A DNA stretch of 36,964 nucleotides from Candidatus Brocadia sp. WS118 (lineage in GTDB: Bacteria > Planctomycetota > Brocadiia > Brocadiales > Brocadiaceae), in assembly GCA_007618135.1 (NCBI GenBank), contig PHFX01000018.1, forward strand, positions 1-36,964. Direction: 5' to 3'. The notes below the pieces were generated by a model, which was given only the letters and a program-made list of their open reading frames with translations, made no database searches and was not told the origin of the DNA. Positions 5,046 through 33,534 of the stretch are shown here, one piece after another. A program made the translations under genes and the position numbers. Position 1 is the stretch's first letter; every line of letters begins with the position of its first letter.

Positions 5046-5801
5046 TCATTTCATGCCAAATACCGAGTATAAACCCCCCAGGGGAATTTTCGCCAAAAAT
5101 CTTTCAAGGGGTAAAAGAAAAGAAAGAAATTGTGGGAAGAAAATCAAATATTCCTGCCTCCGTATCCTGAAACCGGCCTGCAGGAGAATAGACCTGGCCT
5201 CCCATGAATAAAAGGTGGTTGGATAGAGGGATTTTTTGTATCCGTCAAGGTTTACCGCGCGATCAATTTCATTGGTGTTAACCACGTGCCGGGTAAGAGG
5301 GTTAAGGGGATTCATCTCATAGATGGCAATTATGCCTTCATTTTTTAATATCCGGTACACCTCACGCAACGTTTGCATCAATTGATCTTCACTGCCGATA
5401 TGATGCAACATATTGAACAAGACTGCGACCGTAACACTGCTGTCTTTCAATGGCAGCACTTCGGAAATGGAATTGACAAAAGAGGTGCGCTTGAGGTGCT
5501 TTTGGGCAGCAAACTGAATCATTCCAAACGAATAATCACACCCAATCGTATAGGCGAATTTGTCCTGAAAGTACTCTGTTGTTTCTGCCGTACCACATCC
5601 CAAATCGATACAGACAGCATCCCCGTAGCCATGAAAGAGGTTTTTGGTCATCCTTAAAAAATGAAGCGATTTCACCCTGACAAAGTATTTATGATCCTTA
5701 ACGGCCATCTGTTCATATGCCTGGCCGATATCCGAAGACGCATCCGGCCGGGAAAACCAATCCTTGCCTGAATCGTCTTTCATGTCCATGGAGTTCTGCA
5801 T
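5046..5801 (-). CDS. Class I SAM-dependent methyltransferase
   Basis: 251 residues. The glycine-rich SAM loop is VCIDLGCGTAET (residues 63-74), followed by an acidic residue after the next strand (IGCDYSFGMI) and the later NMLHHI segment, as in Methyltransf_11/25 type enzymes. The start at 5801 lies two bases after the stop of the B12 radical SAM gene (5804), so the two are almost certainly translated from one message. The C-terminus is hydrophobic and basic (FLLPLERFLAKIPLGG), which suggests membrane association. Methylation of a lipid-linked or glycan intermediate fits the context, but the acceptor is unknown. Confidence 0.85.
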   Translation of the reverse strand: MQNSMDMKDDSGKDWFSRPDASSDIGQAYEQMAVKDHKYFVRVKSLHFLRMTKNLFHGYGDAVCIDLGCGTAETTEYFQDKFAYTIGCDYSFGMIQFAAQKHLKRTSFVNSISEVLPLKDSSVTVAVLFNMLHHIGSEDQLMQTLREVYRILKNEGIIAIYEMNPLNPLTRHVVNTNEIDRAVNLDGYKKSLYPTTFYSWEARSILLQAGFRIRRQEYLIFFPQFLSFLLPLERFLAKIPLGGLYSVFGMK

Positions 5802-5803
5802 TT

Positions 5804-7231
5804 TCAGGATTTTAAGAGAAATTTTAAACCGTATTTTACGGAACCGGATAAAAAAGGTATTATACCGATATTCTTTATATGCCGGAAAATAAACCGTGGT
5901 CTTAGATAAAACCTGCGATAGGCGCGGGAAATAGCCTTTTTGACGGTCTTTTCATTCAGCTCTTGTGTTTTAATAACATAGTACGAATATTCCATCTTAT
6001 CCCATGAATTGTACTGAAGCAAACCATCTCTCACGCAGGTATCGTAAAAGGCCGTTCCGGGATAGGGCACGGCAGGATAAAAATTGGCATAATCTAGCGG
6101 CAGGGAAAGGGCAAATCGCGTCGTTTCGGCCATATCCTCTTCGGTTTCACCCGGATATCCGTAAATAAAAAAACCAAACGACACAATCCCGGTTTTTCTG
6201 AGGAGGCTGATTGCCCGGGTTATTTTATCGGTTTCAAGTTTTTTTTGCATAGCATTGCGGGTTTTTTCGCTGAATGATTCGATACCAATCGACAACATCC
6301 AGCAACCCGATTCCTTCATCTTTTTCACCAAATCCTGATCATAAAGCGTATCGGCCCTTGTATTGGCCAGCCACCGGATTGAAAGCCGCCTTCCGATCAA
6401 TTCATCGCAAAAAGTTTCAACAAACTTCTTATTGAGTGTTACGGTGTCCCCGAACAGGTTAAAGGTTTTTATCTGAAATTTTTCCTTTAACCGTTCAATT
6501 TCGTCAACCACAGTTTCTGCCTTTTTTTCACGGAATTTCTTCCCATGATTCAGCGTGGCCACGCAAAAATCACAGGCGAAGGGACATCCCCTGCTCGTTT
6601 CGACCATAAGGTATCGTTCGTGGCTGAAGGGTAACACGTATTTCTCCAGAGGGAATAAATCCCATGCAGGCTGTGGAAGCCGGTCCAAATCCGCTATCCA
6701 CGGTCTCCTTTTTGTTGTAACGATTTCTCTGCCATTTCTCCAAACAATACCTTCCACTTTATCGAGGTTTTCCAGGGCATCATTGCTTAAAAGATCCAGT
6801 ATCGTGTATTCAGGTTCACCGATGATACCGATATCAATGTCAGGCACCTTTTCCAGGGTCTCTTGAGGGACACCGGACACATGGGCACCGAAGGCGATAA
6901 GTTTGGCGTGAAACTTTTCTTTGAGCGGGGAAAGAGATGCCGTATCGGCTGCTATGGTCGCGGTTGTCGTACCATAGATAATAACATCGGGGTGGAAATT
7001 GAGCTGCATCAGCCGTTGATAAATTTCATTACCGTTAAGGCCAAGGGCGATTGCGTCGAGCAATTGAAAGTTAATGTTATTGTCCCGCAAAAGGGCGGCA
7101 ATTAATGCGAGCGAAAGCGGGGGTTTCACGGTGCCTAACGTATCCTCTTTTTCCTGGCATCGTCCTTCTCTCGTCCACGCAAACCCTTGTATGCGTGGTG
7201 GGTTTGTGAGTAAAACGGCGTGCGCATTCAT
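5804..7231 (-). CDS. B12-binding-domain radical SAM protein
   Basis: 475 residues in the usual order: a cobalamin-binding Rossmann-type domain (roughly residues 1-150) and then a radical SAM core. The cluster motif is C216, C220, C223 (SRGCPFACDFC), followed by the typical EIERL and FGDTVTLNKKF segments. The N-terminal domain has LLDAIALGL where some families carry DxHxxG, so cobalamin would be bound without the lower His ligand, as in many class B methylases. Relatives include BchE, hopanoid methylases and P- or C-methyltransferases. The substrate here is unknown. The start overlaps the stop of the upstream GT2 by four bases and the methyltransferase follows after two bases, so these three genes form one operon. 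Confidence 0.9.
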   Translation of the reverse strand: MNAHAVLLTNPPRIQGFAWTREGRCQEKEDTLGTVKPPLSLALIAALLRDNNINFQLLDAIALGLNGNEIYQRLMQLNFHPDVIIYGTTTATIAADTASLSPLKEKFHAKLIAFGAHVSGVPQETLEKVPDIDIGIIGEPEYTILDLLSNDALENLDKVEGIVWRNGREIVTTKRRPWIADLDRLPQPAWDLFPLEKYVLPFSHERYLMVETSRGCPFACDFCVATLNHGKKFREKKAETVVDEIERLKEKFQIKTFNLFGDTVTLNKKFVETFCDELIGRRLSIRWLANTRADTLYDQDLVKKMKESGCWMLSIGIESFSEKTRNAMQKKLETDKITRAISLLRKTGIVSFGFFIYGYPGETEEDMAETTRFALSLPLDYANFYPAVPYPGTAFYDTCVRDGLLQYNSWDKMEYSYYVIKTQELNEKTVKKAISRAYRRFYLRPRFIFRHIKNIGIIPFLSGSVKYGLKFLLKS

Positions 7232-7953
7232 ACCGGTTGCACGTGCTTCTTCTTTAATGCCCTCTTAAAGGTATAGAGTTTGTATAAATGCTTTAGGTAA
7301 AAGAGGATTTCTTTTGTTCCCATTTTGCTTTTTCCGGTAACCCGGTCATTAAAGGTATAAGGCACTTCGATAATCGTCTGGTAGTCACCTTTTACTAAGA
7401 TTTCCAGGCAGATCTTAAACCCGACGGGGTCAAGGATCTTATTGCTGATTACCTCTCTCCTGAAAAAAAAGTAACCGGACGTCACGTCTTTAATTGAGGT
7501 AAGTAAAGAACCTAAAAAGCAGGCGGTTCTTGATATTACATGTCTTCGTACCGGCCAGTTAAGAATCCTTCCTCCATGAATATACCTGCTACCCACCGTA
7601 ATATCACAAAGATGGTGTAAGAGAGGATTAACTAAATAGGGTAATGCATCGGGCGCATGGCTGAAATCAGAATCCATGACTCCAAGAATAGGGCTGTCTG
7701 CATGGCCGAAACCATAAATACAGGCGGACGCCAATCCCATTTTTTCGCGTCTGTTGAGTAAAATAATATTGGGGTGTGTTTTCCTGAAGTTATCGATCAG
7801 GTTTGCCGTCCCATCCGGGGAGCCATCATCGACAACAATAACCTCGGCATTAAAATTATGCCTCGAAATTTGATGAGTTACCTTCTCCAAAAAGCTGATA
7901 ATGGTCTCTTTCTCATTATAGGTAGGGACAATGATAGATATTTTATTCTTCAT
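7228..7953 (-). CDS. Dolichol-phosphate-mannose-synthase-like GT2
   Basis: 241 residues, single domain. IIVPTYNEKETI at 8-19, DDGSPDGT at 42-49 and DSDFSH at 94-99 are the standard landmarks of polyprenol-phosphate sugar synthases, and GSRYIHGG further on is also typical. The enzyme would transfer a sugar from a nucleotide donor onto polyprenyl phosphate. It lacks the C-terminal membrane helices found in some DPM1/GtrB relatives. It is the first gene of the minus-strand operon. The product could serve as donor for the DUF2079 protein in the same run, an inference from context. Start ATG 7953. Confidence 0.88.
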   Translation of the reverse strand: MKNKISIIVPTYNEKETIISFLEKVTHQISRHNFNAEVIVVDDGSPDGTANLIDNFRKTHPNIILLNRREKMGLASACIYGFGHADSPILGVMDSDFSHAPDALPYLVNPLLHHLCDITVGSRYIHGGRILNWPVRRHVISRTACFLGSLLTSIKDVTSGYFFFRREVISNKILDPVGFKICLEILVKGDYQTIIEVPYTFNDRVTGKSKMGTKEILFYLKHLYKLYTFKRALKKKHVQPV

Positions 7954-10460: not shown

Positions 10461-10742
10461 ATGGTGCTCGATCTTATACAGTACATATACAAACACCGAA
10501 ATGCGAAAGATACCCTTGAGGGTATCATTCAATGGTGGATTTCAAATGAGCCACGGTTTAAGTGGAGAAAAAAGGAGGTTCAGGCAACTATCGATTTTCT
10601 GGTCGCAAAGGGATGGTTAATCGTCCGGTATGACCTGGTATCTCCCCAAAAGATTTATGCCGTCAATAGAGAACGGATGGAAGAAATGGAGGCATTTTTG
10701 GCTAAGTACGAAGGTGGAGAAATCAAGGAGACAACCACATAA
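10461..10742 (+). CDS. Small hypothetical protein, winged-helix-like
   Basis: 93 residues from ATG 10461, with AAAAGGGA about ten bases upstream. The sequence alternates helices with a final beta hairpin: an N-terminal helix (LDLIQYIYKHRN), a middle helix containing GIIQWWIS, then VQATIDFLVAKGWLIVRYDL.....IYAVNRE. The pattern helix, helix, recognition-type helix and beta wing suggests a winged helix-turn-helix, and the charge is overall basic. I do not recognise a named family. It lies directly upstream of the riboswitch and pilin gene, and the riboswitch begins within 50 bases of its stop, so read-through from its promoter into the switch is likely. A regulatory role is inferred only from fold and place. 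Confidence 0.65.
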   Translation: MVLDLIQYIYKHRNAKDTLEGIIQWWISNEPRFKWRKKEVQATIDFLVAKGWLIVRYDLVSPQKIYAVNRERMEEMEAFLAKYEGGEIKETTT

Positions 10743-10773: not shown

Positions 10774-10888
10774 TTCGATAAGGGCAAACCCTGAGTGATC
10801 AGGGGACGCAAAGTAACAGGGTCTTTTGTAGGGGCGCAGAGCAATACACCCCTACACCTGACAAAAAGACAGCCTTACTGCCGAAGAT
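10774..10888 (+). ncRNA. Cyclic-di-GMP-I (GEMM) riboswitch aptamer
   Basis: The hallmark segments are present in order. GGGCAAACC lies at 10782-10790. A stem CCCTGA/TCAGGG is capped by the GNRA tetraloop GTGA (10789-10804). GGGACGCAAAG follows at 10803-10813, then an AGGGTCTTTTGT/ACAAAAAGAC P3 stem carrying an extra hairpin (GTAGGGG/CCCCTAC, 10828-10855), and finally GACAGCC....GCCGAAG at 10868-10886. This matches the GEMM-I consensus as I remember it. The aptamer binds cyclic di-GMP, the attachment signal. The downstream gene is an Flp pilin, a classic target. Confidence 0.85.
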
Positions 10889-10925
10889 AGGTTACATCAA
10901 TCTTTGCAGTAAGGCTTTTTTGTTT
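10871..10925 (+). terminator. Intrinsic terminator overlapping the riboswitch 3' strand
   Basis: AGCCTTACTGC (10871-10881) pairs perfectly with GCAGTAAGGCT (10906-10916), followed by a T-rich run. The left arm is also the 3' part of the aptamer, so aptamer and terminator would exclude each other. That architecture predicts that ligand binding allows read-through (an ON switch). This is inferred from the overlap and not demonstrated. Confidence 0.8.
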
Positions 10926-10984
10926 TCAAAATAATTTATATTTTATTTTCCAGAAATTTTCATAAATGAATGGGGGTAAATTAC

Positions 10985-11128
10985 GTGAAAAATCACATAC
11001 ATTTTTTAAAGGGTGAGGAAGGGGCAACCACGCTTGAGTATGGGTTGATGGCTGCTGCAATAACCGGTGTAATTATTACTATCATCATCGCTATCGTAGC
11101 TACGTTCAATACCAAATTCCTGACATGA
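10985..11128 (+). CDS. Flp-type (type IVb) pilin
   Basis: 47 residues from GTG 10985, with GGGGG eight bases upstream. A short leader (MKNHIHFLKGEEG) precedes the processing site: Gly, then ATTLEYGLMAA, with Glu at +5 and Tyr at +6. This is the signature of Flp/Fap pilins (PF04964) cleaved by a TadV-type prepilin peptidase. The mature chain of 34 residues is one hydrophobic helix (AAITGVIITIIIAIVATF) with a short tail. Such pilins assemble through a Tad machine into adhesive fibres for surface attachment. No tad assembly genes are in this window, so they must lie elsewhere. The c-di-GMP riboswitch immediately upstream should control it. A large stem-loop follows the gene. Confidence 0.9.
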   Translation: MKNHIHFLKGEEGATTLEYGLMAAAITGVIITIIIAIVATFNTKFLT

Positions 11129-11250: not shown

Positions 11251-11751
11251 TTTAACTGGCTACCCTTTCCTTCCATGCTTCTAAGGATTGGTTACCATAC
11301 CTGTATGCAAGATTTCATGGACTCATTTTAGTATGTCGGGCTTATTCTTGGGTATTGCCCTTTTCATCCCTTTTTATTTCACGGTTTCAGGTTTGTACCT
11401 TAAACCCTCTGTTTGGCAAGTCCTTTTAAAATTCTTATTGAAGGAAAAGGGATATTTCGATGGTAAAAAAAGGCGCATCCTCATGTTGCTTAGGTATTGT
11501 AAAGGGTCAGTAAACAACCCTAAGCCTTTTTGGATGCGCCCTGAATAATTTACTTTATTGTACATTATAATCAATATTTCCGCAAAACGCAAATTGCTAG
11601 CTTTCTTATATTTTTTATACCCCCTAGAATAACGAAGTTTAAAGTATATCTGGGCTCAAAATGGCAATGGGTTTCACGAAACGATTATCATAAACATTTC
11701 AGGTTATCAGCAATTATTTATGTCGTTGTATTGAGAAAGGGGGAGAAATAG
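11251..11751. other. Intergenic region with nested inverted repeat
   Basis: It contains GGCGCATCC (11471-11479) and its complement GGATGCGCC (11531-11539), with an inner pair GCTTAGG/CCTAAGC (about 11489-11524), so a branched structured RNA is possible. A reading frame of 86 codons (11288-11548) spans it but ends inside the repeat arm and is not credible. AAAGGGGGAG at 11736-11745 is the strong ribosome-binding site of the next gene. Confidence 0.5.
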
Positions 11752-13590
11752 ATGTTGAAGAGGCAAATAGGGATCTTGGTATGTGCGATGTTTCTCGGCT
11801 TTATTGTCATGATTTCCCATGCCAGCGCGTGGACAAACAACACCCTGGACAGTGCAGGTGATGTAGGTGAGTTTGGGGCTATAACAACGGGAACGTCCGG
11901 CGCCGCGTATATCAGTTATTATGATGGCACAAACGGTGACCTCAAGTATGCCACCAACGCCTCCGGCACATGGACGACCACCACACTGGAGAGTACGGGC
12001 GATCTAGGCAGGTGGACTTCCATAGACGTGGACACCTCAGGCGCTGCGTATATCAGCTATTACGACTTAACAAACCTGGACCTCAAGTACGCCACGAATG
12101 TCTCCGGTTCGTGGATATTCAATACCCTGGACAGCGCTGGCGCTGTCGGCCGGTTTACCAGCATAAAGGTAGCGCCAACCGGCGCTTCCCATATTAGTTA
12201 TTATGACACGACAAACGGCAACCTCAAGTATGCCACCAACGTCTCCGGCACATGGACAGTCACCACAATAGACAGTCCTGATGACAGGGGCCAGTATACC
12301 TCCATAGATGTAAGTACTTCAGGCGCTGCTTATATCAGTTATTATGCTGTTTTAAACGGCAATCTCAAGTATGCTACTAATGTCTCCGGTACATGGGTAG
12401 ACACCGTACTGGACAGTACGGGTGATGTAGGCCAGCACACCTCCATAGAGGTGGATACGACTGGCGCCGTTTATATCAGTTATTATGACGTTACAAACGG
12501 CGACCTCAAGTATGCCACCAACGTCTCCGGTTCCTGGATATACAATACCCTGGACAGTACGGGTGACGTAGGTCAGTATGCCGACATAGAGGTGGGTACG
12601 TCGGGCTCTGTTTATATCAGTTATTACGACCTCACAAACGGTGACCTCAAGTATGCCACCAACGCCTCCGGCACATGGACGACCACCACGGTAGATAGTA
12701 GTCCGGATGATGTAGGAGCTGACAGCACCATTTCCGTGGGGCTGTCGGGCGCTACCCATATCAATTATTATGATCGCACGAACCTGAACCTCAAATACAC
12801 CCTCAACCCCACCCATATAGCAGTGACGGGAGATGCATCAGACATAACGGCAAGTGATGCGACATTCAATGGAACGGTAAATGCCAGCGGACTTGCCACG
12901 ACGGCATTTTTTCAATATGGCACAGTAAGCAGTTCCTATACCGGCACGTCGACTTCGCAGGCAGTGAGCGGCATAAGCGACACAGCGGTAGGCATCGCAA
13001 TTGGCGGCTTAAGCCCATCCACGATTTACTATTACCGTATCGTAGCGCAGAATTTTGTTGCTACGCTTAACGGGAGTGAGTTGTCATTCACCACATCCGA
13101 AGACGGTGGAGGCACACCAACGCCAACGCTTACGTCTACGCCTGGCACTCCGACACCAACCCCCACACCGGATACGCCTACACCAACGCCAACACCGACA
13201 CCTTGCGAAGTAGCCGAAGTTGATGCAGTGCCAAAATATTTGAAATTGCGGACGAAGGCAAGCTCAAAAGAAACTGTAACGGTGACGTGCGAGGATGGCA
13301 CTCCAAAGTCTGGGGTATCAGTATCAGCCGCGGTTAGTCATGGTAAGGAACAGGTGTCTGTTTCACCTGAACAAGCAGTTACGGGCCCAAGCGGTCAGGC
13401 GGTATTCACAATCACAGCGACGAAGAAGACCGGCAACGCAAAACTAATATTTGAAGCTGAAGGTTTGAGGGATAAAGTATCAGTAAAGGTAGAAAAGAAT
13501 AAAGGAAAGGGTAAGGACCATGACCATGACGACCATGACGACCATGACGACGATGATGACCATGACCATGGGAAAAACCGTCGTCATTGA
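11752..13590 (+). CDS. Secreted seven-repeat (propeller-like) protein with FN3-like and Ig-like domains and His/Asp tail
   Basis: 612 residues. A signal peptide ends at SHASA before WTNN. Seven repeats of about 46 residues follow (about 30-345), each built around YISYYDxTNxDLKYAT. Seven such four-strand units would fit a beta-propeller. Next come a fibronectin-III-like domain (about 360-445), a Thr-Pro linker (TPTPTPTP, about 455-485) and an Ig-like domain resembling Big_1 (VSVSAAVSHGKEQVSVSPEQ region, about 490-575). The C-terminus is a basic Lys/Gly stretch and then about 20 residues of almost only Asp and His, a likely metal-binding tail. It should be extracellular and may bind surfaces or ligands. 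It does not carry the GPEKVxVKK module of the right-hand proteins. The repeats are conserved at DNA level, so copy number may vary between strains. Confidence 0.85.
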   Translation: MLKRQIGILVCAMFLGFIVMISHASAWTNNTLDSAGDVGEFGAITTGTSGAAYISYYDGTNGDLKYATNASGTWTTTTLESTGDLGRWTSIDVDTSGAAYISYYDLTNLDLKYATNVSGSWIFNTLDSAGAVGRFTSIKVAPTGASHISYYDTTNGNLKYATNVSGTWTVTTIDSPDDRGQYTSIDVSTSGAAYISYYAVLNGNLKYATNVSGTWVDTVLDSTGDVGQHTSIEVDTTGAVYISYYDVTNGDLKYATNVSGSWIYNTLDSTGDVGQYADIEVGTSGSVYISYYDLTNGDLKYATNASGTWTTTTVDSSPDDVGADSTISVGLSGATHINYYDRTNLNLKYTLNPTHIAVTGDASDITASDATFNGTVNASGLATTAFFQYGTVSSSYTGTSTSQAVSGISDTAVGIAIGGLSPSTIYYYRIVAQNFVATLNGSELSFTTSEDGGGTPTPTLTSTPGTPTPTPTPDTPTPTPTPTPCEVAEVDAVPKYLKLRTKASSKETVTVTCEDGTPKSGVSVSAAVSHGKEQVSVSPEQAVTGPSGQAVFTITATKKTGNAKLIFEAEGLRDKVSVKVEKNKGKGKDHDHDDHDDHDDDDDHDHGKNRRH

Positions 13591-30134: not shown

Positions 30135-33100
30135 TCACGGTGCCGCTTCTATGGTAAACGGGGCGTCCGAAGTATCCTTGCCCTTTTTCCTGCCGGAGGC
30201 ATCATATCCTATCACCTGGATGAGGCACTTATTCTTATCTTTTGTCAGGACGGGCACCTTCCAGTCGTAACTCGTACCTTCCACGTTTTTCGCTATCTTT
30301 TTCCACGAATTTCCCTTATTCAGAGAATATTTTACGGTAAATTTCACCATATCCTGTGGTGCCGTCCACTGAATGGTATACGTGGACCCTGCGGTTACTA
30401 TTTCACCCCCGTTCGGCACGTTCACCGATAATGATGCCTCGTCAGAAACGCCAAGCCGCGTAAGCGGATCGCCAAAAAGCACAAAGGTTTCCACCAATTC
30501 ACCCCAGGTTTTGCTCTTGGCATAGGTGGAAATCTTGGCATTGGTCGTGGCAGCGCCAAGACCGTACAGGTTATACTGGAAGAAATCTTCATACAATTCG
30601 CCGATGAGTATCCGGTGACCGGACGTGTAACTCAGGGCGGTAGGCGCCCAGACGGCTATCGCCCCATCTTCTTTCAGCAGTTGAAACTGCTCGGCAACGG
30701 ATATTTGAGGGTTTGTGCCCGTAAAAAACCCATTGAGGCAATTCGCCGTCGTCACCATGGTCAGCTTGTTCGTGTTGTTTAATGATGTGATGTCGGAAGT
30801 GCCAAAAATACTTTTATCATTATTGTCCCATAATCCCCACCGGTTCACAGCGCCATGACCCGTATAGTTCGTGAGCAGGCTTCCCTTATCGATGTAACCG
30901 ATAATATCCTTTGTCGGATTCCCTGAGGAATAGGCGCTTACGTATACCTTATTTGCCGTGTAGTCATCGGGCAATAAACCGGCAAGCTGCTCCGACATCT
31001 CTTCAAATGAAGCATCGTCATCGTCTGCCACCAGCAGTGCATTCCTGTTCCATGGCGCCTTTGGGGGATTCTTTTCATATGAAATAATCTTGTCGACAAC
31101 GTCCGCAGCCTCTGATTTTGTCTGCACACTGAGCCGGCCAAGATACATATCGGGAAGGATATCATCTCCGCTCACCAGGACAAACCAGTTATCTGATGGC
31201 GTTTCTCCCAGGATGTCCGTCTCAATATTCTGGGATGGCACATAGTTTAACGTGCCGGTTTTATAAAGATCCCGAAAATCCTGACAGGCGTCGCCCACCA
31301 ACAGGACATATGCGGGCGTCGGTGTAATCCAGTTGTTGTACGTGTAGGTCAAAAAGTCCCGGATAGCCTGTGGATGGAAGATGCCATCGTTAAATTCGTC
31401 ATAAATATCCCCAACCTTGACCACAGCCACGTTCCAGCCGGCTTCACTCCGGTAGTCAGCAAGCTTCTGAGCGCTGCTATAAAAATCCTCGTGGGTAATG
31501 ATGAGATAATCCGCCCTGTTGCCTGCAGATTTCCAGGATGAAGGCTCATCGCTTTCGATGCTGGCTGCCGATTTATACCGTGAAGACGTCAGCGCCAGAT
31601 ACTGCGTTCCTGTCTGGGCATCGTCCTCGAATTGCAGCGTATAGGTATTCCCTTTGGACAAGACATTGGTATTGGCAACGAGCGCCACGCTGGTGGGATC
31701 CGTCACGTCGAAGACCGCTATAGCATTACTGCCGAAACCGGCAACCTCAAATTGAAACGTGCCTTGTGCCGGCGCGCCGAACAGCAGTTCGTCATCCTCT
31801 GCCACATAGGTATCCAGATAGTCGATTTCGATCCAATTCATAAAAACCTGTTCCACCGTAGCGCCGGTATCGCCTGGCAGCTCCAGGCGCACCGCATTCG
31901 TTCCCTCATGCAGCGCCGGATGTAACACCGTTGTTGTGTGGTCATGGATAATCTGACCATCCCACGTCTGGTCATCCACTTCCGCGCCATTCAGATATAT
32001 TTTTGTATGGTGGTCGGGATTTACGTCCTGAATCCCGGTACGCCCCTTTAATCTCACCCTTACGGTTGCCGTACCGGCCGCCTTTGAGATATGATTCAGA
32101 CTCAGGGAATAGTCCACTGAAGCCGGCGCAGTAAGCTGATAGTCCCAGAACCAATGGTCCTCACTCCCGCCGTTAGGCATCGTTTGCCAATATTCACTGT
32201 CTCTCTCCGCATGCACGGTCGCAGGAAAGTATTCCGGAATAACGGCCTTTCCCGAAAGTGCGCCATCCACGGTACCCATGCGCTTGCCGGCGCCGCTACC
32301 GGCGGTCAGCCAGTAAATATTTTTCGTTGTGTAAATATCCTTGTTTGCGATGCCATAAAACAGGATGAAATCGTCCGTATTGAATACACCGTCATCCTCG
32401 CCGGATACAAGAATGGGAATTTCAGCGCCGCGGTTGCTTATTTTAATTGTCCGGGGGTCTGTATTTTTAAGATTCAGCCCGGCACCGGAAAGATCATGAT
32501 AGTCAAGCCGGTAGATACCGTCTTCGGTAACACCAATTTTAATAGCCGTTCCGTCGCTGCTTTTCTCAATAACGTCTTTACCTTCAGCCGCCGGATCCGT
32601 GTGCGGTATTTCAGGAGCAGATACCGGACGCTTCAGGACGTCGTAATTTAAAAGAAGGCTTTTTAACATCTCTTCGTAGGCAGGACTGGTTCCTGGCGTC
32701 TTACGGGACGACGACACCTGCCGGGCATCCCATGCAATCTTTACCAGGATACGCCGGTAAAAACGCACCGTGCCTTCAACCGGATTATACTGCACCGGAT
32801 AAAATTGCACCTGAGCCACAGCCTGATCGCGCAGGTATCCCCTGTAACCGATACCCGCAATTGCTTCGGGATAAAAGGCATTGGTCTGGTAAATATCCCC
32901 GTCTGTGAGAAAGGTTTTCTCTATACCCCCTTCATGGAAATCGTTCAGATTATTTCCCATAACCTTCCACCCCGGCGCCGGTGGCAGGCGATACCCGTAC
33001 ACCGACTCAAAGCTGGCGTCTATAACGTGCAGGGAAACGCCGTCAATGGCCGGAATCCCTATCAATGCGCCGCTCACAGGCACCTGGGGTTTGCCCGGTC

Positions 33101-33320
33101 TGTCACTCTGCACCAGATCCGGCACGATGATCCTTTGATATGATTGACCTTCGTGTTCTATCGTCTCTGTCTGAAAACCGCTCAATCGCAGTTCGACGAC
33201 GACACCCTCGGTGTCAGAGCGTACTACCCTGATCTTACTCCCGGACGAAGACTCTGCGCGACTCAAAGACAGACAAATACCAGACAATACGATACACGTA
33301 ATGATAAGAATGTTTTTCAT
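30135..33320 (-). CDS. Secreted C25 (gingipain-family) cysteine peptidase
   Basis: 1061 residues from ATG 33320 (GGAATTGCTC upstream). The frame is open to 33401, but that part is repeat-derived; ATG 33332 is another option. A signal peptide ends near SRA (about residue 22). A propeptide-like N-terminal region follows (VPDLVQSDRPGKPQVPVSG, as in gingipain propeptides), then beta-rich parts. The C25 domain (about 600-960) carries NYTGHGAVNRWG with His822 and TTANCLNGFF with Cys861, the catalytic dyad. The last 95 residues are an Ig-like domain (PNGGEIVTAGSTYTIQWTAP). The enzyme should act outside the cell. C25 members are either proteases (gingipain) or the T9SS sortase PorU; the NCLNG context is closer to the former. 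It lacks the GPEKVxVKK module of its neighbours. Confidence 0.9.
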   Translation of the reverse strand: MKNILIITCIVLSGICLSLSRAESSSGSKIRVVRSDTEGVVVELRLSGFQTETIEHEGQSYQRIIVPDLVQSDRPGKPQVPVSGALIGIPAIDGVSLHVIDASFESVYGYRLPPAPGWKVMGNNLNDFHEGGIEKTFLTDGDIYQTNAFYPEAIAGIGYRGYLRDQAVAQVQFYPVQYNPVEGTVRFYRRILVKIAWDARQVSSSRKTPGTSPAYEEMLKSLLLNYDVLKRPVSAPEIPHTDPAAEGKDVIEKSSDGTAIKIGVTEDGIYRLDYHDLSGAGLNLKNTDPRTIKISNRGAEIPILVSGEDDGVFNTDDFILFYGIANKDIYTTKNIYWLTAGSGAGKRMGTVDGALSGKAVIPEYFPATVHAERDSEYWQTMPNGGSEDHWFWDYQLTAPASVDYSLSLNHISKAAGTATVRVRLKGRTGIQDVNPDHHTKIYLNGAEVDDQTWDGQIIHDHTTTVLHPALHEGTNAVRLELPGDTGATVEQVFMNWIEIDYLDTYVAEDDELLFGAPAQGTFQFEVAGFGSNAIAVFDVTDPTSVALVANTNVLSKGNTYTLQFEDDAQTGTQYLALTSSRYKSAASIESDEPSSWKSAGNRADYLIITHEDFYSSAQKLADYRSEAGWNVAVVKVGDIYDEFNDGIFHPQAIRDFLTYTYNNWITPTPAYVLLVGDACQDFRDLYKTGTLNYVPSQNIETDILGETPSDNWFVLVSGDDILPDMYLGRLSVQTKSEAADVVDKIISYEKNPPKAPWNRNALLVADDDDASFEEMSEQLAGLLPDDYTANKVYVSAYSSGNPTKDIIGYIDKGSLLTNYTGHGAVNRWGLWDNNDKSIFGTSDITSLNNTNKLTMVTTANCLNGFFTGTNPQISVAEQFQLLKEDGAIAVWAPTALSYTSGHRILIGELYEDFFQYNLYGLGAATTNAKISTYAKSKTWGELVETFVLFGDPLTRLGVSDEASLSVNVPNGGEIVTAGSTYTIQWTAPQDMVKFTVKYSLNKGNSWKKIAKNVEGTSYDWKVPVLTKDKNKCLIQVIGYDASGRKKGKDTSDAPFTIEAAP

Positions 33321-33534
33321 GAGCAATTCCATTACAAAAGTTGTTTTGAAAGTAAAGAAACATCGGATAGCGGGGGACAAGCCACCCGCGCTACCATTCA
33401 CACAAAATCAATGTCATAGCGCAGCGCCGCCGCAACCAAAGCCGCTGTGACTGCCAGGCAACAACAGAAACCACAGATTTCACAGATTGCACAGAAAAAA
33501 CTTACAAAAAAAAGAAGTTTTTACAGGGTAATAC
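33321..33534. repeat. Upstream region of the C25 gene with D fragment and CACAGATT stutter
   Basis: 33365-33402 has AGCGGGGGACAAGCCACCCGCGCTACC. 33465-33495 has ACCACAGATTTCACAGATTGCACAG, a short imperfect tandem. The promoter of the peptidase gene should be here, but I see no convincing pair of boxes. Confidence 0.5.

Follow-up and report, generated by a model that had tools for sequence, protein, structure and literature searches.

A predicted default-off, c-di-GMP-on riboswitch ahead of a small Flp-type pilin gene in an anammox planctomycete

Introduction

In wastewater plants anammox bacteria form granules and biofilms, and their genetic manipulation is hard. A contig of Candidatus Brocadia sp. 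WS118 (hereafter the window, the whole 36,964-nt stretch of DNA analysed here) carries a riboswitch-like element upstream of a very short open reading frame, which raises the question of what the RNA senses, which gene it serves, and whether it turns that gene on or off. Our reading is that the element is a default-OFF, c-di-GMP-ON switch acting on the transcription of a small Flp-type pilin gene; we put the probability of this reading at about 0.75. The ligand, the sign of control, the transcription start and the pilin role are what we infer from the features described below. In the open-access literature we found nothing relevant on riboswitches of anammox bacteria, Brocadia or Kuenenia, or on a Flp pilin combined with a riboswitch. 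Coordinates are on the forward strand of the window except where a minus sign is given.

Results and Discussion

Aptamer

A cmscan of the whole 37-kb window returned a single Rfam match, to RF03167 (c-di-GMP-I-GGC), at 10774-10886 (59.8 bits, E 7.8e-12, gathering score 59, full model length). In the whole-genome search the same aptamer scored 59.5 bits with RF01051 (c-di-GMP-I, GEMM-I), for which the gathering score is 35. The GEMM-I covariance search that the sequence-only reading had called for is thus positive with both models, and the motifs it had named were all located at the positions and in the order claimed: GGGCAAACC at 10782, the GNRA stem-loop at 10789-10804 (loop GUGA, 10795-10798), GGGACGCAAAG at 10803, and GCCGAAG at 10880. 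P1 consists of four pairs, 10774-10777 with 10882-10885. The predicted ligand-contact bases are G10783, A10810 and C10881, which we take to be G20, A47 and C92 in Vc2 numbering. These contacts were placed by alignment to Vc2 and to the 3',3'-cGAMP riboswitch (PMC6274999). The GNRA stem, the conserved junction and the pocket bases (10782-10813 and 10878-10886) are those of the c-di-GMP-I class; the three-way junction, GNRA loop and pocket bases are common to the window aptamer and the two families, and the full-length match lies above gathering. At the level of sequence, the element is confirmed as a class I c-di-GMP riboswitch aptamer.

The aptamer is 33 nt longer than the 80-position RF03167 model because a palindromic hairpin, GTAGGGG...CCCCTAC (10828-10855), sits in the terminal loop of its second hairpin. 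The same hairpin occupies the corresponding loop of four other riboswitches of the genome (five in all), and the palindrome occurs at 4 further sites outside riboswitches; a reversed-pattern control gave 0. In folding, the insert forms independently and the aptamer is undisturbed. Copies of this dispersed palindrome (GTAGGGGCGTATTGCAATACGCCCCTAC) were recorded at 10828-10855 of the window and at C58:41068, C3:24817, C3:46621, C256:96270 and C14:57281 of the genome. In two other genomic aptamers (C158:18605-18731 and C62:883-1011) the strand AAAGATAGCCTTACTGC recurs within the loop.

Terminator and direction of control

An intrinsic terminator (10871-10926) overlaps the aptamer. Its 5' arm (AGCCTTACTGC, 10871-10881) is the aptamer 3' strand, its 3' arm (GCAGTAAGGCT) lies at 10906-10916, and a T-run (T6-G-T4) occupies 10916-10921 and 10923-10926. 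The perfect 11-bp hairpin proposed earlier is present (11 perfect pairs, -23.6 kcal/mol for the bare hairpin), and the stem is longer than had been described, with six further pairs and a small tip stem stacked inward of it on folding. C10881, the predicted ligand-contact C, pairs with G10906 inside the terminator. Forced-fold energies indicate that the terminator and the aptamer are mutually exclusive via their common 3' strand, the contact C included. The energy of the aptamer-forced fold minus that of the free fold is 0.1 kcal/mol at nt 10886, 1.2 at 10895, 9.2 at 10911 and 21 at 10926; that is, the two are nearly equal up to about nt 10895, after which the terminator is favoured, by about 21 kcal/mol at the end. 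Since the aptamer loses once the terminator has been transcribed, the choice must fall during transcription, within some 20-25 nt, an interval estimated from equilibrium folding and not from kinetics.

In the proposed mechanism, RNA polymerase would make the aptamer before the terminator. Bound c-di-GMP would clamp the aptamer 3' strand with its C10881 and so keep it from serving as the terminator 5' arm. Transcription would then run on into the pilin gene; read-through may extend past it to a secreted-protein gene at 11752. Without ligand, 10906-10916 would capture the aptamer 3' strand and transcription would end at the T-run. It has been shown that in the pilM RNA of Geobacter metallireducens, a proven ON switch, aptamer and terminator are mutually exclusive and the ligand-pairing residue C75 is sequestered by the terminator (PMC9262584). 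The strand logic of the window element is the same as in this cGAMP riboswitch, with the aptamer 3' strand serving as the terminator 5' arm and the contact C sequestered; it differs in its pocket base (G, the c-di-GMP type, against A in pilM), in its downstream gene, a Flp pilin, and in its planctomycete host. The earlier proposal that the ligand blocks the terminator and switches the pilin on agrees with the mutual exclusivity, the pilM-like layout and the energetics, while its sign of control is something we infer; the riboswitch probably turns the pilin gene on.

No promoter-like site was found near the aptamer. A 93-aa open reading frame (10461-10742), which gave no match in Pfam or NCBIfam, ends 31 nt before the aptamer and may be co-transcribed with the riboswitch.

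Pilin gene

The gene after the terminator, flp, runs from a GTG start at 10985 to a stop at 11126-11128 and is preceded by a Shine-Dalgarno-like GGGGGT (10972-10977), with 7 nt from the end of this site to the GTG. The GTG-started frame of 47 codons that had been read as a Flp pilin is present; its match to PF04964 (Flp_Fap) has an E-value of 2.3e-7 and 30.9 bits, just below the curated cut-off of 32.2. The predicted cleavage site is KGEEG^ATTLEY (KGEEG^ATTLEYGLMAAAITGVIITIIIAIVATF), a G^xxxxEY motif followed by a hydrophobic helix. A short prepilin, the G^xxxxEY motif and one hydrophobic helix are shared with the Flp/Fap pilins of Tad loci (PF04964), whereas the window pilin ends about 10 residues early, scores below the Pfam cut-off and is encoded in a genome with no detected TadE or TadA-like ATPase. 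A frameshift behind the short C-terminus was unsupported on inspection by eye.

No Flp match beside the flp product was obtained in the genome, and a search of the ten other genomes of the genus gave none. We rejected a place for flp within a Tad locus, as the window has no recognisable tad gene and a search of the genome for TadE was negative; the genome is 96% complete, so that missing Tad parts are no proof of absence. None of the six T2SSE proteins in the genome was read as TadA-like; by eye they look PilB-, PilT- and TrbB-like. One prepilin peptidase is encoded. With neither TadE nor a TadA-like ATPase found, the window pilin appears to be an orphan, without a dedicated assembly system here, and the machinery for type IV pili might serve it instead.

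A pairing of riboswitch and flp was also detected in two genomes of another genus of the same family (G015 and G022), where an RF03167 aptamer is followed on the same strand, after about 390 nt, by a Flp open reading frame. The GGGGGT...GTG layout ahead of flp is repeated in both (L166 and L167), and the G015 protein matches PF04964 with 49.7 bits. Their aptamer strand is present twice, and the second copy builds a perfect terminator hairpin apart from the aptamer; the sign of control may for this reason differ from that of the window switch. Comparison of flp between G015 and G022 gave 5 non-synonymous and 0 synonymous codon differences, a count that does not demonstrate purifying selection. 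The claim that the riboswitch controls a pilin gains from the Flp_Fap match and from this pairing in the two other-genus genomes, with the caveat that Tad machinery was not found.

A second type of platform was observed in sister genera (L166 1009-1195, L167, L182, L193 and L198). Here the aptamer 3' strand recurs about 50 nt further downstream, where it folds into a terminator of its own. Until that terminator has been completed, the copy is able to pair with the 5' strand of the aptamer, and the arrangement could make an OFF switch.

Alternative target

The chief target could instead be a 612-aa secreted repeat protein encoded at 11752-13590, with the small open reading frame a passenger in a long leader. 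The C-terminal region of this protein weakly resembles that of the anammox S-layer glycoprotein Kustd1514 (NF052345, E 2e-5, 22.2 bits, far below cut-off). Secreted proteins are abundant in the riboswitch regulon, and in Brocadia BIN37 a similar protein (open reading frame 5746-7698 of locus L061) directly follows a riboswitch aptamer at about 5350-5476, with no Flp match there. We consider this unlikely: more than 600 nt separate flp from 11752, at least one weak hairpin resembling a terminator lies between them (11489-11526, then CTTTTT), Flp follows a riboswitch in the two genomes of another genus, and the Flp open reading frame has a good ribosome site. The 612-aa protein is kept as a possible second target beside flp. 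Farther along the window, on the minus strand (30135-33401), a 1088-aa protein with a gingipain-type Peptidase_C25 domain is encoded; it is related to the type IX sortase PorU, below the curated cut-off.

Ligand

Sequence is an unsafe guide to ligand identity in these RNAs. Many GEMM-I RNAs of Geobacter sense cGAMP (PMC9262584, PMC8835794), and the cGAMP switch of pilM has the identical terminator layout (PMC9262584), so the window aptamer might sense another cyclic dinucleotide, e.g., 3',3'-cGAMP, and not c-di-GMP. The 3',3'-cGAMP riboswitch has A14 at the position equivalent to Vc2 G20 (PMC6274999). Every one of the 38 genomic copies has G at this position (G10783 in the window), which argues for c-di-GMP, and the c-di-GMP-I models are the best fit to the aptamer. 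The A at the discriminating pocket position that marks cGAMP (GEMM-Ib) RNAs is absent from the window aptamer; with G as its pocket base a cGAMP reading is disfavoured, and we regard another ligand as distinctly unlikely. Of the other features, a GNRA loop is found in 37 of the 38 copies and CC ahead of the 3' P1 strand in 36. The genome encodes 20 GGDEF proteins. Judged from its pocket, the window riboswitch most likely has c-di-GMP as its ligand.

Copies in the genome and lineage

The window element is one of 38 RF03167 matches in the genome, 19 of them above the family gathering score; 36 genomic aptamers exceed the RF01051 cut-off. Aptamer numbers are 22-57 per genome in the 11 genomes of the genus (that of the window included), 1-28 in other genera of the family and 0-11 in the rest of the order, and none was found in 14 control genomes. 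Searching public genomes with the pattern GAYAGCCTTACTGCCGAAGAT gave planctomycete records alone among the matches listed; those that bear a genus name are from Brocadia, Jettenia, Kuenenia, Scalindua and Loosdrechtia. An overlapping terminator is present in 33/38 genomic copies, against 1.8 expected when the downstream sequence is shuffled. From public anammox contigs 106 distinct sites were taken, with the 5' arm and not the 3' arm as the criterion; 82 of them have the exact 3' arm, against 0.05 expected. Because the copies are related, both figures show conservation and not independent origins. Few paired changes occur between the terminator arms listed (e.g., CCTTCCTG/CAGGAAGG), and the stem is so nearly invariant among copies that covariation support is thin.

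It is very unlikely that the window element is a non-functional leftover of cassette spread, in effect a constitutive terminator: many near-identical copies exist, some truncated (C221:118602) or with inserts, and the hairpin insert in the window aptamer is itself a dispersed palindrome, yet at this site the core positions, P1, loop and terminator are all intact and the insert folds by itself with the aptamer structure kept.

Two genomic aptamers (C241:424-506 and C87:242-326) lack an overlapping terminator and are followed by a repeated GCCAGGTTGCC-like strand. Given this repeated strand, and a type IV pilin-like gene after one of the two, control there may be of another kind.

Regulon

Taking as target the first plausible gene after each copy, picked by position and ribosome site, we found genes for subtilases, a caspase-like protease, RCC1, NHL, beta-helix, DUF11, DUF7948 and Lcl_C proteins, cytochrome c', OmpH-like protein, a polysaccharide synthesis enzyme, an amidase, CobS and a type IV pilin-like protein. 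Most of the predicted targets encode secreted or surface proteins. The same cassette stands ahead of about 30 other genes, mostly of this kind, and the pilin would accordingly belong to a wider c-di-GMP surface regulon. An 89-aa protein (MSVQQKEKSKRK...) follows a riboswitch both in Brocadia pituitae (L088 686-1180) and in the genome studied here (C14:112797), which indicates that some riboswitch-gene pairs are conserved. After the aptamer at C229:516-609 the next gene encodes a 58-aa peptide (MSEKISAEHIGHEV...) that looks like a modified-peptide precursor.

Seventeen GEMM-I riboswitches have been reported in G. sulfurreducens (PMC8835794) and 16 c-di-GMP riboswitches in Clostridioides difficile, a total described in 2018 as above that of any sequenced genome except a few deltaproteobacteria (PMC6200980). 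As is predicted for the Brocadia genome, several of the C. difficile riboswitches control genes for surface proteins, and a pilin is among the targets (pilA1, class II, ON); its class I riboswitches are OFF switches, in contrast to the 38 class I aptamers here, mostly of ON-type layout (PMC6200980 for C. difficile). We lean, by a modest degree, towards the view that the c-di-GMP riboswitch regulons of Brocadia-type anammox bacteria are among the largest of any bacteria, one aptamer-plus-terminator cassette having spread to 22-57 places per genome and keeping dozens of secreted and surface proteins, pilins included, off by default and on with c-di-GMP. The element type is already known; the genus-wide expansion of one cassette may be unfamiliar to specialists, and our search of the open-access literature turned up no account of it, though one may exist elsewhere. 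With about 38 switches of the same design, the genome offers a readable list of genes expected to be on at high c-di-GMP, and these anammox switches are open to in vitro testing without culture of the host.
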